Shown here: piece by piece, positions 27,759 to 34,988 of the stretch
How positions within the stretch are numbered: the stretch's first letter is position 1
Layout: every line of letters starts with the position of its first letter
Source of the DNA: Helcobacillus massiliensis
Lineage (GTDB): Bacteria > Actinomycetota > Actinomycetes > Actinomycetales > Dermabacteraceae
Reading direction: 5' to 3'
Length of the DNA stretch: 64,000 bases
Assembly (NCBI RefSeq): GCF_014191425.1
Contig: NZ_JACHWP010000002.1
Span: 62,001-126,000 of the forward strand
Notes under the pieces: model-generated
What the model was told of the DNA's origin: nothing
The model's database searches: none
The model's input: the letters and a program-made list of their open reading frames with translations, nothing else
Program-made: the position numbers and the translations under genes

Positions 27759-27872
27759 ATGTGCAGTACGGGCTTTCTCTCACACCGCGTGGAACCCCAA
27801 GTTACCGGCCTAGCACTTTCGATGGATCCGATATACGTTCGTAATGTTCGCGTTTCCCACCCGAGGACCATC

Positions 27873-29867
27873 ATGTCTCTCCTTCCCCGCCGCTCCCTGA
27901 TCCGCACCGGTGCCGCTCTCCCCTTCGGAGCAGCCGCCGTCCCCGCTGCGTCCGCCGCCCTCCCCGCAGCCGATGGCACCCAGGGCGACTCGGGCACCAC
28001 CATCACCGATGAGGACCTGGCGACACCGGAGTCCGCGAAGAACGCGTCCTCCGCCGCTGACGACGACGCTCCCGGACGCTCCGTCGCCGGCACCGCGACG
28101 ATGGCCGCCGCCACCTGGACCGGGGAGGACCCGGACACGGTGGAGGTGTCCGCTCGGGCCGCCGACGGCACCTGGTGCCCGTGGCGCCGCCTCGAACTGC
28201 TCACCGACATGGGGGCGAAGGCCACCGACCCGTCCTGGTTCGGTCCCTCCACAGCGGTGCGCTTCCGCGCCGCGCGCGACGGTCAGGACGTCACCGCTGA
28301 GCTGACGGCGCACCTGATCGAGACCTCGGAGGACCCGTCGGACCACGAACGCGTGGGCAATGGGCCCAGCGGCGGCGGCACCGGCCTCACCGGCACCGTC
28401 CCGGCAACCAAGGTGCTCGCCACCGCGGCGCCCGCGATGTTCACCCGCGCCGAATGGGGCGCGAACGAGTCCTGGGCGCGCAACTCGAGCGCCGACAGCG
28501 AACTGAAGTCCGTGGTGGTGCACCACACCGCCGGCTCCAACAGCTATTCGCGCGCTGATTCGATGCAGATCATGCGCGGCATCTACAGCTACCACACGCG
28601 CACGCTCGGTTGGGCGGACGTCGGCTACAACGTGCTGGTCGACAAGTACGGCCAGATCTTCGAGGGCCGCCGCGGCGGGATCCACCGCAACATCCGCGGC
28701 GCCCACGCGCTCGGTTTCAACCACAGCACGTTCGGCATCTCGATCATGGGCGACTACGAGGTCGCGTCGGCTCCGTCGGCCGGCATCGACGCCCTCGCGC
28801 GGGTGGCGGGCTGGAAGCTCGGCTCCGCGTTCATCGCCGACGTGCGCGGCACCTCGGTGCACCAGCCCCGCAACACCGATTCGTCTGCCGTGCGGTACAA
28901 GAGCCCCGTGTCGCTGCCGCGCATCTTCGGCCACCGCGACGTCAACTACACCTCCTGCCCCGGCAAGAACGTGTACTCGAAGTTCGAGAACCTGCGCACC
29001 CTCGCCCAGCGCTACCGCGACGCCCACCCGACCGGGCACTACCTCGCGTTCCACCGGAACGGAGGCTTCACGCGCTTCGGAACCGTCACCCACGCCCAGC
29101 GGCTGGAGGGCTCCTACCACGTCACCCGCGCCACTCGCGGCCTCGTGGTCACCGCCGGACAGTCCACCGTGGCGCACCAGAGCCCGTACGCCGCTTCCTG
29201 GACCTCCGCGTGGGGCCAACCGCTGGAGTCGACGACCAGCGGGCCGCAGCGCTTCGCGAACGGTATCGCCGACAAGGTGAACGGCAAGGTCGTGTTCACC
29301 GCCGGCGGCCCCGGGCAGACCTTCAAGGACGTGCCGCGCTCGCACATGTTCTCCACCGAGATCGAAGCGCTGGCGAACAAGGGCATTCTGCGGGGCTGGC
29401 CGGACGGCACGTACCGCCCGTCCGTCGCGGTCAACCGCGACGCCATCATCGCGTTCATGTACCGCGTCGCCGGCTCCCCCGCCTACACCCCGCCGGCCCG
29501 CTCCCCGTTCGTGGACGTCCCGACGAACTCGCAGTTCTACCGTGAGATCTCCTGGGCGTACGCGACAGGCCTCTCCACCGGCTGGACCACCCGCCGGGGC
29601 CGCGAGTTCCGTCCCCTGCAGCCGGTGAACCGCGATGCGATCGCCGCGTTCCTGTTCCGTTCCAGCGGCGATCCGCTGCCCGTGGCGAAGACCGCCCCGT
29701 TCCGGGACGTGCCCCGCACCTCGCAGTTCGCCCGTGAGATCACGTGGATGAAGAGCGCGGGCATCTCCACCGGCTGGCCGGACGGTACGTTCCGCCCGCT
29801 CGTCGCGACGAACCGAGCAGACATGGCCGCGTTCATCTATCGTCTGATGAAGAGGCAGGGCAAGCTC
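27873..29867 (+). CDS. Exported N-acetylmuramoyl-L-alanine amidase (PGRP-like) with three SLH repeats
   Basis: A roughly 665-residue surface protein. The N terminus (PRRSLIRTGAALPF...) has a twin-Arg pair and a hydrophobic stretch, so it is exported, perhaps by Tat. A zinc amidase domain of the PGRP type spans about residues 190-380. It has FTRAEWGANESW, VVHHTAG (His217/218), a GYNVLVDKYGQIFEGRRGG block and GHRDVNYTSCPG (His354, Cys362). Three SLH repeats follow at about 484-545, 546-609 and 610-665, each with an F-x-DVP start and a G-W-x-DGT/F-x-P core. SLH repeats bind pyruvylated wall polymers, and the next gene encodes a pyruvyl transferase. The ATG at 27873 has GAGGA upstream. Confidence 0.9.
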
Positions 29868-29937
29868 TGATCCCGTCGACCGCCGCGGTCAGGACGGTGC
29901 CCTGCCGACGCCGTCGACGCTGAAGAGAGTGTGAAGC

Positions 29938-32355
29938 ATGAGAGTCGCCCTGCTGTGCGATGTGGACCAGACCGTCTACCACGTGGGCGATGAAGCGATC
30001 GCGTCCGCTGAACGGGAGCAGCTGGAGCGCCGAGGCTTCACTGTGGTCCCGGTGTCGCGGCACGAGAAGTACGGCCCCGGCGGCACCGCCCCCGCGGACG
30101 CGATCGACGCACTCACCTTCCCGCACGATCCGCAGGACCGTGAACGGTACGCCGAGGAGATCCAGCAGGTCCTCGGCGGCAGCGATGCCGCCCTGCCCGC
30201 CGAGGACAAGCTGTTCCGCATCCGCGAGCAGCTGCGCGGCGTGGACGCCCTCGTCATCGGCGGCGGAGGAAACCTGAACTCCCGATTCGGGTGGCTGCTG
30301 CTGGAGCGGTGGGCGATGGGTCTGCTGGCGCACAGCCTCGGCCTGCCGGTCGTGGTCGCGGGCCAGACCCTCGGCCCTGACCTCACGGCGGCCGACCGTG
30401 CCCGCCTGCGCGATCTCTTCGCCATCGCGCGAGTGGTGGCGGTCCGCGATGAGGCGAGCGCCGCGCTCGCCCGCTGCGTGGGGCCGACGGGTTCCGCCGC
30501 GTCAGCAGTGCTGTGCAGCAGCGACGATGCGGCCGCGCCGATCCTCGACCAGCGCATCACCGGCCCCGCTGACGACGCGCACGGGGCCGGCACCGAGGCC
30601 CGGGCGGGCACTGACGACCGGGCAGACACTGACGGCCGGGCGGGCGCTGTCCGCGGCCGCACCCTCTCGGTGACCCTCGGGTCGGCGGCTCCGTTCGATG
30701 AGGACGAGTACGTCACCGCCCTCGCCGGCATCATCGACCGGGCCGCGACGGCACTGGACGCGACAGTCGAATTCGTGCCGCACATGGCGGATCAGGACGA
30801 CCCCGATTCCGGCGACTGCCGACTCAATGCGCTGGTTGCGGCGCGTTTGGATGCCCCGCACCGGCTCGCCCCGATCGAACTGGCGGCGGCGTCCGCTGCC
30901 CGCACCTGCGCGGCCGACGCAGTCCTCACCACCCGGTTCCATCCCCTGGTCTTCGCGCTGGCCTCGGCCACACCCGTGCTGCCGATCCACCTGGACCGGT
31001 ACGGCCGCGTCCGCATGGACGGCGCCCTCGCCAATGCCGGGGCCGACCAGCGCAGCCTGAGCCTGGAGCACCTGCTCGCCGATCCGGCGGCTGTCGACGC
31101 CGCGATCGCCGATCTCGCCCACTGCGCCGACGCGCCCGACGCCAGCGGCCCGTCGCACGGCGCAGCCGCGCTTGAGGCGATCACCGGCACCTGGGACGCC
31201 ATCGCGGACGCCCTGCAGGGCCGGGACCCGTCGGCCCCCTCCCCCAGCGGCGACGCCCCTGCAGCAACAGACACCGGCGACCGTTCCGCCACCGCGGCCG
31301 CAGCCGGTACCCGCGCCCACTCCCCTGCCACCGCCGCGTCCGGTGAATCAGCTGGGACCACCGGCGAACCGGCACAGACCGCGATCATTCTGCGCACCAA
31401 GGACCGGCCCCTGCTCCTGGACCGCGGCATCCAGGACATCCTCGGGCAGACCGTCACCGACTGGCACCTCGTCATCGTCAACGACGGCGGCGACACCGAC
31501 GACCTGACCGCCGTGGTCGACCGCTACCGGGACGAACTGGGCGAGCGCATCACCGTTCTCCACAATGAGCAGTCGCGCGGCATGGAAGCCGCCACGAACC
31601 AGGGCCTGGCCGCCACCCGCAGCGAATTCGTCGCCGTCCACGACGATGACGACGTCTGGCACCCGCGCTTCCTCGCCCGCACCACACGCTTCCTCGCCGA
31701 CACCGACGCCGCCGCTGTCTCCGTGCGCACGCACATCGTGCTGGAGCGCCTCGCCGGTGAGGAGCCCGGCGTGTACGTCCCCTACGAGACGTTCCCGGTC
31801 TGGCCGGAGATGCACAGCATCACCCTCGCGCACTTCATCCGCATCAATCGGATGGTACCGATCTCCCTGCTGTACCGCCGCAGCGTCCACGACACCATCG
31901 GGCTGTTCAACGAATCGCTCCCGGTGATCGGCGACTACGAGTTCCATCTGCGGCTCCTGCAGTCGATGACGGTCGGATTCCTGGACGAACCGCTCGCGTT
32001 CTGGCATCAGCGGCCCGGCTCCACCGGCGCCTCCAGCAACTCTATGGTGGCGGGCCTGCGCGACCACCACCGCTTCGACGCACTGCTGCGAGACCAGTAC
32101 TTCACCACCTGGGTGGAGAAGAACGGGCTCGGACTGCCGATGTTCATCACCGCGGCGCTGCGGGAGGAGGCCGACGGGCTCCACCGCGAACTCGCCGACA
32201 CCCGCCGTGAGCTGGCCGACATGCGCCACCAGGTCGATGCGATGGCCCACCAGCTCGAGGTCATCGAGCACGGGGTGCTCAACGGCGGCACCATCAACTT
32301 CGTGAAGCGCACCGGCCGGCGTGTTCTGCGGCGCCTGCCCGGCCGGGGGCGCTGA
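29938..32355 (+). CDS. Polysaccharide pyruvyl transferase fused to a GT2 glycosyltransferase
   Basis: An 805-residue cytoplasmic fusion. Residues 1-370 resemble CsaB-type pyruvyl transferases: HVGDEAIASAE, GGGGNLNSRFG, VVVAGQTLGPD, VAVRDEAS and TTRFHPLVFALAS. CsaB attaches pyruvate to secondary wall polysaccharide, making the SLH ligand. An Ala/Thr/Ser-rich linker (about 395-478) leads to a GT-A glycosyltransferase domain beginning TAIILRTKDRP near 480, with VNDGGDTDD and an acidic DDDD motif at 569-572. Residues 735-775 form a coiled coil, followed by a basic tail. It starts 67 nt after the SLH amidase gene, so both are probably in one operon. The ribosome-binding site is weak. Confidence 0.85.
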   Translation: MRVALLCDVDQTVYHVGDEAIASAEREQLERRGFTVVPVSRHEKYGPGGTAPADAIDALTFPHDPQDRERYAEEIQQVLGGSDAALPAEDKLFRIREQLRGVDALVIGGGGNLNSRFGWLLLERWAMGLLAHSLGLPVVVAGQTLGPDLTAADRARLRDLFAIARVVAVRDEASAALARCVGPTGSAASAVLCSSDDAAAPILDQRITGPADDAHGAGTEARAGTDDRADTDGRAGAVRGRTLSVTLGSAAPFDEDEYVTALAGIIDRAATALDATVEFVPHMADQDDPDSGDCRLNALVAARLDAPHRLAPIELAAASAARTCAADAVLTTRFHPLVFALASATPVLPIHLDRYGRVRMDGALANAGADQRSLSLEHLLADPAAVDAAIADLAHCADAPDASGPSHGAAALEAITGTWDAIADALQGRDPSAPSPSGDAPAATDTGDRSATAAAAGTRAHSPATAASGESAGTTGEPAQTAIILRTKDRPLLLDRGIQDILGQTVTDWHLVIVNDGGDTDDLTAVVDRYRDELGERITVLHNEQSRGMEAATNQGLAATRSEFVAVHDDDDVWHPRFLARTTRFLADTDAAAVSVRTHIVLERLAGEEPGVYVPYETFPVWPEMHSITLAHFIRINRMVPISLLYRRSVHDTIGLFNESLPVIGDYEFHLRLLQSMTVGFLDEPLAFWHQRPGSTGASSNSMVAGLRDHHRFDALLRDQYFTTWVEKNGLGLPMFITAALREEADGLHRELADTRRELADMRHQVDAMAHQLEVIEHGVLNGGTINFVKRTGRRVLRRLPGRGR

Positions 32356-32526: not shown

Positions 32527-33018
32527 TCAGTCCTCGGTCTTCTCCTCGGCGGCTGCCTCGGTGGTCTCCGGGGCCTCGTCGGCCTTCGCAGCGTCGTCAG
32601 CCTTCGCGGACTGCTTGGCAGCGCCCTCAGCCTCCTTCACCACGGACTCCTTGGCGGAGTACGGCTCGTCGACCAGCTCGATCAGCGCCATCGGGGCGTT
32701 GTCGCCCTTGCGCGGACCGATCTTGGTGATGCGGGTGTAGCCGCCCGGACGCTCAGCGAACTTCGGGGCGATCTCGGTGAAGAGCTCGTGGACGACCGAC
32801 TTGTCGAGCACGGAGCGCATGACGCGGCGGCGTGCAGCAAGGTCATCCTTCTTCGCGATGGTGATGAGGCGCTCGGCCACCGGCTGCAGGCGCTTCGCCT
32901 TGGTCTCGGTGGTCTTGATGGCGCCGTGCTCGAACAGAGCGGTGGCCAGGCCGGCCAGCATCGCCTTCTCGTGAGCGGCGGAACCGCCGAGACGAGCTCC
33001 CTTCGTGGGTGCAGGCAT
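32527..33018 (-). CDS. rplQ: 50S ribosomal protein L17 (bL17)
   Basis: The 163-residue protein begins [32 protein letters not shown], the L17 core, which ends near residue 120. The remaining 40 residues are an Ala/Glu/Lys/Asp-rich acidic tail, an extension common in actinobacterial L17. It is the last gene of infA-rpmJ-rpsM-rpsK-rpoA-rplQ. truA, often the next gene, is not here. Confidence 0.95.
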
Positions 33019-33045
33019 TGTTGTTCTCCTTGGAAGTGTGAAGTG

Positions 33046-34047
33046 TCAGAACTGGTCGCCGAAGTCGCCGTCGCCGTAGGACTCGAGCACAGTCGACGGG
33101 TCGAAGCCCGCCGGCGAATCCTTCAGGCTCAGGCCGAGCTCAGCGAGCTTCGCCTTCACCTCGTCGATGGACTTCTGACCGAAGTTGCGGATGTCCAGCA
33201 GGTCCGCCTCGCTGCGGGAGGTGAGCTCACCGACGGTGTGCACGCCCTCGCGCATAAGGCAGTTGTAGGAGCGGACCGTGAGGTTGAGGTCGTTGATCGG
33301 CAGAGCCAGATCAGCTTCCATCGCCTGGTCGGTCGGGGACGGACCGATCTCGATGCCCTCAGCCTCCTCGTTCAGCTCCTGGGCGAGGCCGAAGAGCTCC
33401 ACGAGGGTCTTGCCGGCCGAAGCGATGGCATCGCGCGGGGCGATGGCCGGCTTCGTCTCGACATCGATGATCAGACGGTCGAAGTCCGTGCGCTGCTCGA
33501 CACGGGTCGCCTCGACCTTGTAGGTCACCTTGAGGACCGGCGAGTAGATCGAGTCGACCGGGATGCGGCCGATCTCGCCCTCGACGCCCTTGTTCTGCTG
33601 GGCGGACACGTAGCCGCGCCCGCGCTCGACGATCAGTTCGATCTCGAGACGACCCTTGTCGTTGAGAGTTGCGATGTGCAGATCCGGGTTGTGGATCTCC
33701 ACGCCGGCCGGCGGGGTGATGTCACCAGCGGTGACGGTGCCCTCGCCCTCCTTGCGCAGGTACATCACAACAGGCTCGTCGTTCTCGGAGGAGACGACCA
33801 GGTTCTTGATGTTGAGGATGAGCTCGGTGACATCCTCCTTCACACCCGGAACCGTGGAGAACTCGTGGAGAACGCCGTCGATGCGGATCGACGTCACCGC
33901 TGCGCCCGGGATGGACGACAGCAGCGTGCGACGCAGCGAGTTGCCGAGGGTGTAGCCGAAACCCGGCTCCAGCGGCTCGATGACGAACCGGGAGCGATTG
34001 TCCGAGACTGTCTCCTCGGTCAGCGTGGGGCGCTGTGCAATGAGCAC
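33046..34047 (-). CDS. rpoA: DNA-directed RNA polymerase alpha subunit
   Basis: The 333-residue subunit starts with GTG ([44 protein letters not shown]). It has the assembly domain up to about 230 and, after an acidic linker, the C-terminal DNA-binding domain ([28 protein letters not shown]). AAAGGA precedes the GTG. rpsD, which sits between rpsK and rpoA in many bacteria, is absent here. Confidence 0.97.
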
Positions 34048-34122
34048 GTTGTGTCCTTTCTGCGAACGTCCGCTATATGACGTTCAGGTGGCGGTATGAC
34101 ACGGAGATGGACGGGGGACAGA

Positions 34123-34530
34123 TCAGTTGCGGCGACGCTTCGGCGGACGAACGCCGTTGTGCGCCTGCGGGGTGACGTCCTGGATCGAGCCGACCTCGAG
34201 GCCGACAGCGGTCAGGGAGCGGATCGCGGTCTCACGACCGGAGCCGGGGCCCTTGACGAAGACGTCGACCTTCTTCAGGCCGTGCTCCTGGGCGCGGCGG
34301 GCAGCGGCCTCAGCAGCCATCTGCGCGGCGTACGGGGTGGACTTGCGCGAGCCCTTGAAGCCGACCTGGCCGGCGGAGGCCCACGAGATCACGGAGCCGG
34401 CGGGGTCCGTGATCGACACGATGGTGTTGTTGAAGGTGCTCTTGATGTGCGCCTGGCCGGCGACGACGTTCTTGTTCGCCTTGCGACGCGGCTTGCGGGC
34501 CGCGGCAGTGGCGCGGGACTTGGTAGCCAT
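34123..34530 (-). CDS. rpsK: 30S ribosomal protein S11 (uS11)
   Basis: A 135-residue protein of the 30S platform. The basic N-terminal tail ([18 protein letters not shown]) is followed by [17 protein letters not shown] and the C-terminal [16 protein letters not shown], both diagnostic. AAGGAG lies nine bases before the ATG. It sits between rpsM and rpoA. Confidence 0.97.
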
Positions 34531-34613
34531 GTGGCTGAACTCCTTGGGATTCGTGAAGGTGATCGGAGCGACCGGACCTGACGGTCGATCGCGGCGCAGC
34601 TTCGGCTAGTGCC

Positions 34614-34988
34614 TCAGCGCGCCTTCTTCTTGCCGGCGACGGTGCGCTTCGGGCCCTTGCGGGTGCGAGCGTTCGTCTTGGTCTTCTGGCCGTGGACGGG
34701 CAGGCCACGACGGTGACGAAGGCCCTGGTAGGAGCCGATCTCCACCTTGCGGCGGATGTCCGCTGCGACCTCACGGCGGAGGTCACCTTCGATCTGGAAG
34801 TTCTCTTCGATGTAGTCGCGCAGCTTCACGAGGTCCTCATCGGACACCTCGCGCACGCGCTGGTCGCCGTCCACACCGGTGGCGGCGAGGGCTTCGACGG
34901 CACGGGAACGACCCACGCCGAAAATGTACGTCAAGGCGACTTCCAGGCGCTTTTCGCGCGGGAGGTCAACGCCAACGAGACGTGCCAT
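34614..34988 (-). CDS. rpsM: 30S ribosomal protein S13 (uS13)
   Basis: A 124-residue protein of the 30S head that contacts tRNA. It starts [28 protein letters not shown] and ends in the usual basic tail [27 protein letters not shown] precedes the ATG. A 172-nt gap separates it from rpmJ, long for this operon, and contains ACCGCC-tgatc-GGCGGT (35075-35091). Confidence 0.97.

Follow-up and report, generated by a model that had tools for sequence, protein, structure and literature searches.

A putative writer-reader wall-anchoring gene pair, an SLH amidase beside a pyruvyltransferase-glycosyltransferase fusion, in Helcobacillus massiliensis

The recognition of wall polymers by SLH repeats is known structurally for pyruvylated N-acetylmannosamine (ManNAc) in Firmicutes; in the solved structures pyruvate is bound by Arg43 and Gly29, and Trp13 stacks on the ManNAc (PMC6081394). 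In Paenibacillus alvei, TagA adds ManNAc from UDP-ManNAc, the product of MnaA, and once ManNAc is part of a lipid-linked disaccharide, CsaB pyruvylates it (PMC6030368). Actinobacterial wall glycopolymers, such as those of Promicromonospora, Nocardiopsis and Brevibacterium, have pyruvate ketals on non-ManNAc sugars, namely galactose, GalNAc, GlcA and Kdn, and a review reports no known function associated with them (PMC6801904). We describe here a locus that extends the question of SLH recognition to actinobacteria. It lies in a 64,000-nt stretch of the Helcobacillus massiliensis genome (contig NZ_JACHWP010000002.1, positions 62,001 to 126,000; hereafter the window), and consists of two genes on the plus strand: one for an SLH-anchored N-acetylmuramoyl-L-alanine amidase of the PGRP/Amidase_2 type (27873..29870, 665 aa) and one for a CsaB-like pyruvyltransferase fused to a family 2 glycosyltransferase, GT2 (29938..32355, 805 aa). 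On the basis of sequence comparisons, the two genes probably form a matched writer-reader module for wall anchoring.

The locus shares with the SLH/CsaB anchoring of Bacillus anthracis and P. alvei the three-SLH trimer with the Sap/SpaA fold, Arg43 and Gly29, and a CsaB-like gene nearby. It differs in the fusion of the pyruvyltransferase to GT2, in the lack of TagA, of a recognizable MnaA and of Trp13, in having an amidase as the anchored protein, and in that the slot beside the amidase can be taken by a second, unrelated pyruvyltransferase. We propose that a variant form of SLH/CsaB anchoring exists here, and in addition that writer and reader may be exchanged as a matched cassette. Firmicutes peptidoglycan hydrolases carrying SLH repeats are reportedly also wall hydrolases held on the wall by SLH; the present protein differs from them in that it is an amidase of the PGRP type, comes from an actinobacterium and has a genetic coupling to the maker of its presumed ligand. 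Pyruvate ketals on non-ManNAc sugars are the product class expected here, where they would have a protein-anchoring role. The role of these actinobacterial polymers is reported as unknown (PMC6801904); the locus provides a concrete and testable link, which names one enzyme, one anchor, swaps found in nature between closely related species, and pocket residues expected to decide sugar recognition.

The initial annotation, made from the letters of the window, described an amidase with three SLH repeats, and the Pfam scan agrees with this description. The open reading frame (ORF) spans 27759-29870 and its likely start is the ATG at 27873, the same as was chosen initially; a twin-arginine-like signal stands behind this ATG, with an RR pair invariant in 20/20 aligned proteins. 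In this secreted protein the signal is followed by an N-terminal beta domain, the Amidase_2 catalytic domain (PF01510/PGRP; 28503..28967; E 2e-12, 47.8 bits against a cut-off of 26) and the SLH repeats. The zinc-ligand-type residues H217, H354 and C362, together with Y252 (numbering from 27873), are invariant in all 20 aligned amidases. The SLH family (PF00395) matches in three stretches above its cut-off (88 bits, E 4e-25), and the repeats lie at 29322..29471, 29508..29666 and 29700..29849. Arg43 and Gly29 are kept in these three and in all 60 repeats of the 20 aligned amidases, whereas Trp13 is found in none of the 60; its position is Met in the first repeat and Gln in the second and third, followed each time by Phe. 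The aromatic residue has moved by one position, with W/Y/F right after Gly29. In the predicted structure (mean pLDDT 84), which resembles PGRPs, the Sap SLH structure 3PYW (TM 0.82) and also 6BT4, the SLH trimer is of the Sap/SpaA-like form, and wall-polymer binding is predicted for it.

The second gene follows after a spacer of 67 nt (29870 to 29938), the distance given initially, and its product does combine the two domains that had been assigned to it. PS_pyruv_trans (PF04230; 29983..30987, residues 16-350) scores 76.9 bits against a cut-off of 25.3, and Glycos_transf_2 scores 76.3 bits at residues 483-598, within a GT2 domain of the GT-A fold at 31366..32157. The score for the CsaB equivalog TIGR03609 (52.5 bits) is far under its cut-off of 213.1, and therefore "CsaB-like", the wording used from the beginning, is the right label. 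Over its full length the protein aligns with 13 relatives, to which it is 43-47% identical, and the motifs are intact; R170-D171 and T332-R333-F334-H335 are invariant in the 14 sequences, as is the acidic HDDDD motif of GT2 starting at H568. By motif, not by direct alignment, R170, R333 and H335 are assigned to the phosphoenolpyruvate-binding Arg and the R-x-H of P. alvei CsaB (PMC10435577). In the model of the fusion (pLDDT 75, pTM 0.74), the GT2 fold matches SpsA, TarP, TarS, RmlT and others with Z of about 21-24, and a long, coiled-coil-like helix, partly of low confidence, leads from GT2 to the C-terminus (32134..32277, helix 733-780). A sequence search found no PDB relative of the pyruvyltransferase domain; the structure look-up with residues 1-430 gave UDP-GlcNAc 2-epimerases and PimA, a general GT-B-like resemblance, and the fact that Pvg1p was not listed excludes nothing. 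In the collection of papers searched, we found none on SLH with Dermabacter or Brachybacterium, and none on a bifunctional pyruvyltransferase-glycosyltransferase with SLH.

Judging from the domain families, GT2 would add a sugar to a lipid-linked intermediate of a wall glycopolymer, and the fused CsaB-like domain would put a pyruvate ketal on that sugar. The polymer would then be exported and attached to peptidoglycan, where the SLH repeats of the amidase, and those of the other SLH protein of the genome, would grip the pyruvate through the Arg43/Gly29 pocket, as in the solved SLH structures. The amidase thus anchored may stay on the wall and trim peptidoglycan there. Across the family, different pyruvyltransferases fill one slot, and the SLH trimer changes with the enzyme.

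We examined the distribution of these proteins in 47 genomes of the family of Brachybacterium, in an even sample of 297 genomes of the class, and in a wide scan of 84,980 species genomes. In the family, SLH proteins are present in 41/47 genomes and the fusion in 17/47, and all 17 carriers are SLH-positive; these include G004, with the reversed domain order (GT2 before pyruvyltransferase), and G043, with a TAG-interrupted gene. The latter is a draft Brachybacterium genome in which one TAG codon interrupts the fusion (L024 2082-4514, minus strand), either a sequence error or a real break. The wide scan gave relatives of the fusion in Herbiconiux, Arthrobacter, Boudabousia, an Actinomycetaceae, Propionibacteriaceae and an unplaced actinobacterium. 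SLH proteins are present in all eight genomes outside the family that have the fusion, a split relative of it or one visible only in half; two of these genomes (L068 and L072) showed no more than the pyruvyltransferase half. In the even class sample, SLH proteins are found in 8/297 genomes, and the two genomes with a full-length fusion both belong to these. The view that SLH is sparse in actinobacteria, taken initially, holds for the class, though not for this family. A regular occurrence of the fusion in SLH-free genomes, which had been named as evidence against the pairing, was not observed, since carriers in the family (17/17) and outside it (8/8) are SLH-positive on the background of 8/297.

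The two enzyme activities are found also as separate genes. Those of Arthrobacter (L066, L071) overlap, with an SLH gene next to them; Herbiconiux (L064) has the order SLH, pyruvyltransferase, GT2, the unfused csaB and GT2 genes again overlapping; and those of Boudabousia are adjacent. Fused and unfused versions of one pair are a usual sign of two activities in one series of steps. Trees built for each of the two domains place the split pair of Boudabousia and the fused protein of the Actinomycetaceae as sisters (100/99 and 100/98), which indicates that joining or parting occurred more than once. The gene pair recurs beside rplQ in many relatives with the same locus order, and this synteny and the co-occurrence rule out that the amidase and fusion genes are chance neighbours. 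In the source genome (2.62 Mb, 99.9% complete), a search suggested at the outset gave one SLH gene besides the amidase gene, two in total, and no PF04230 gene other than the fusion. It could be argued that the product of the fusion is a capsule or exopolysaccharide that has nothing to do with SLH anchoring, and that the gene stands there by accident, because PF04230 is common in SLH-free actinobacteria (113/297 in the class sample, where SLH is at 8/297) and each half of the fusion can be found alone in such genomes. This is very improbable in view of the strict co-occurrence of fusion and SLH, the conserved synteny, the split operons with SLH genes and the co-exchange described below.

Concerning the sugar, the TagA/WecG-type ManNAc transferase (PF03808) is absent from 46/47 family genomes, including the source genome, and from every SLH genome of the family. 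The UDP-GlcNAc 2-epimerase MnaA (PF02350) is not recognizable in the source genome, where the best scores are 21.8 and 21.4 bits against a cut-off of 30.6; PF02350 is above this cut-off in 39/47 family genomes, but in neither the source genome nor the fusion carriers G007, G016 and G022. With TagA absent and MnaA not recognizable, the textbook pyruvyl-ManNAc has no known route in the source genome. We infer that SLH would still recognize pyruvate, but on another sugar, and that the ligand sugar is probably not ManNAc. Alternatively, the module may be real and its ligand still 4,6-pyruvyl-ManNAc, if an unrecognized epimerase makes the precursor and GT2 replaces TagA; in fold and in the Arg43/Gly29 pocket, the SLH repeats agree with Sap and SpaA in their ligand-bound forms, and the wide presence of PF02350 means that many relatives could supply UDP-ManNAc. 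This we regard as unlikely, considering the four genomes that have no PF02350 above cut-off, the lack of TagA in all SLH genomes of the family and the loss of Trp13 in 60/60 repeats. A ligand likely other than pyruvyl-ManNAc, and the different pyruvyltransferase that occupies the slot in some relatives, both go beyond the initial annotation.

That different enzyme belongs to a stand-alone pyruvyltransferase family, which fills the slot next to the same SLH amidase in several genomes of the genus Brachybacterium and in genus g6. Members of this family are 45-82% identical to each other and share the R-F-H motif with the fusion type; close homology between the two types was considered and rejected, because BLAST gave no full-length similarity and only one 51-aa match. 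We labelled the amidases by the type of neighbouring enzyme and constructed separate trees for the amidase domain and the SLH trimer, with 500 shuffles of the labels. In the amidase-domain tree the labels are scattered (8 changes; 188/500 shuffles as low), and for this domain a single clade uniting the stand-alone-type Brachybacterium fails the AU test (p 3e-45). In the SLH-trimer tree of the same proteins, in contrast, the labels sort (2-3 changes; 0/500 shuffles as low), and this persists without the pocket columns. That the SLH tree sorts by neighbouring enzyme and the amidase tree does not indicates that anchor and writer have apparently been exchanged together, with the reservation that the counts depend in part on each other, that support is weak at many forks of the amidase tree, and that the linked case offers only three independent contrasts with good support. 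The join can be seen directly between two closely related species, G027 with the fusion and G026 with the stand-alone enzyme: the flanks are mostly 90-98% identical, the amidase domain mostly 69-85% and SLH 51-69%, the enzyme slot is unrelated, and identity then recovers to 83-98%; between G027 and the fusion-type G042, SLH is 69-80% and the enzyme 61-85% identical.

SLH position 13 also differs with the enzyme: neighbours of the fusion have M/Q/K/E/L there, and neighbours of the stand-alone enzyme have V/I, along with a few A, P, G and others. The classes compared (V/I/A/G/P against polar/Met) were picked after the data were seen. We put forward, tentatively, a writer-reader code in which the neighbouring enzyme may write one of several pyruvylated sugars, position 13 and the surrounding trimer may read it, and both may swap between species as one cassette, changing the chemistry of the wall anchor. 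The competing explanation is that SLH and pyruvyltransferase travel together through adjacency on the DNA alone, with no matching of specificity. The SLH-coding end of the amidase gene does directly abut the enzyme gene, and the well-supported independent events are few (three pairs on starred branches). However, SLH proteins encoded away from the locus also tend to follow the type, with exceptions (3/5 against 2/35, Fisher p 0.009); the SLH of genus g6, sister to that of the source amidase, has stand-alone-type residues at position 13; and the SLH proteins beside csaB-GT2 in Arthrobacter and Herbiconiux have fusion-type residues there (K/M, Q/M, Q). We consider linkage alone unlikely, though it could explain a part of the co-exchange. 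The anchor-and-ligand pairing that was suggested initially gains support from the SLH co-occurrence, the split csaB and GT2 genes beside SLH genes, and the co-exchange of SLH and enzyme.

Several observations weigh against the matched module. Genomes free of SLH can have one of the domains by itself, as G211 and G259 do with a close GT2 and G054 and G356 with the CsaB-like part, and some SLH genomes have no adjacent PF04230 gene or none at all. Within the family, the association between fusion and SLH is weak (17/17 against 24/30; about 0.055 by hand calculation), so that the case is carried by the class background, by adjacency and by co-exchange. As the SLH and enzyme genes are adjacent, some joint exchange is expected without selection. 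V/I-type SLH proteins exist in the fusion-type G027 and G036 and a polar-type one in the stand-alone-type G031, and the SLH amidase of G035 (L089 597-2864, plus strand) has no pyruvyltransferase beside it. The V/I-type proteins of G027 and G036 (L120, L124) are unlinked, and that of G027, whose amidase domain groups with stand-alone-type species, is perhaps a relic. G017 (L027) has two amidases in tandem, and in its position-13 residues the G035 protein is similar to the first of them.

In the window, the gene pair is convergent with rplQ, rpoA, rpsK and rpsM (32527..34988, minus strand; identified from ORF translations), a conserved neighbour that serves by synteny as the marker of the locus; in Brachybacterium this ribosomal block is co-directional and upstream. 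The second SLH protein of the source genome (L034 7367-8038; contig C1, about 321366-322037) has 223 aa, with a signal, three SLH repeats and little else, and its start overlaps the stop of an SGNH-hydrolase-like ORF (L034 6501-7367), an arrangement that would fit an anchor and an enzyme made as separate subunits. PF04230 was found also in other combinations. It is fused to a nitroreductase domain in G021 and G023 of the genus Brachybacterium (L049 3324-5912 and L048 4424-7465, both minus strand), with similar long frames in G011 and G034, and in the SLH-bearing actinobacteria G047 and G061 it is in frame with Glyco_trans_1_2 in opposite orders (L039 5100-8390 and L040 4528-7374, both plus strand).

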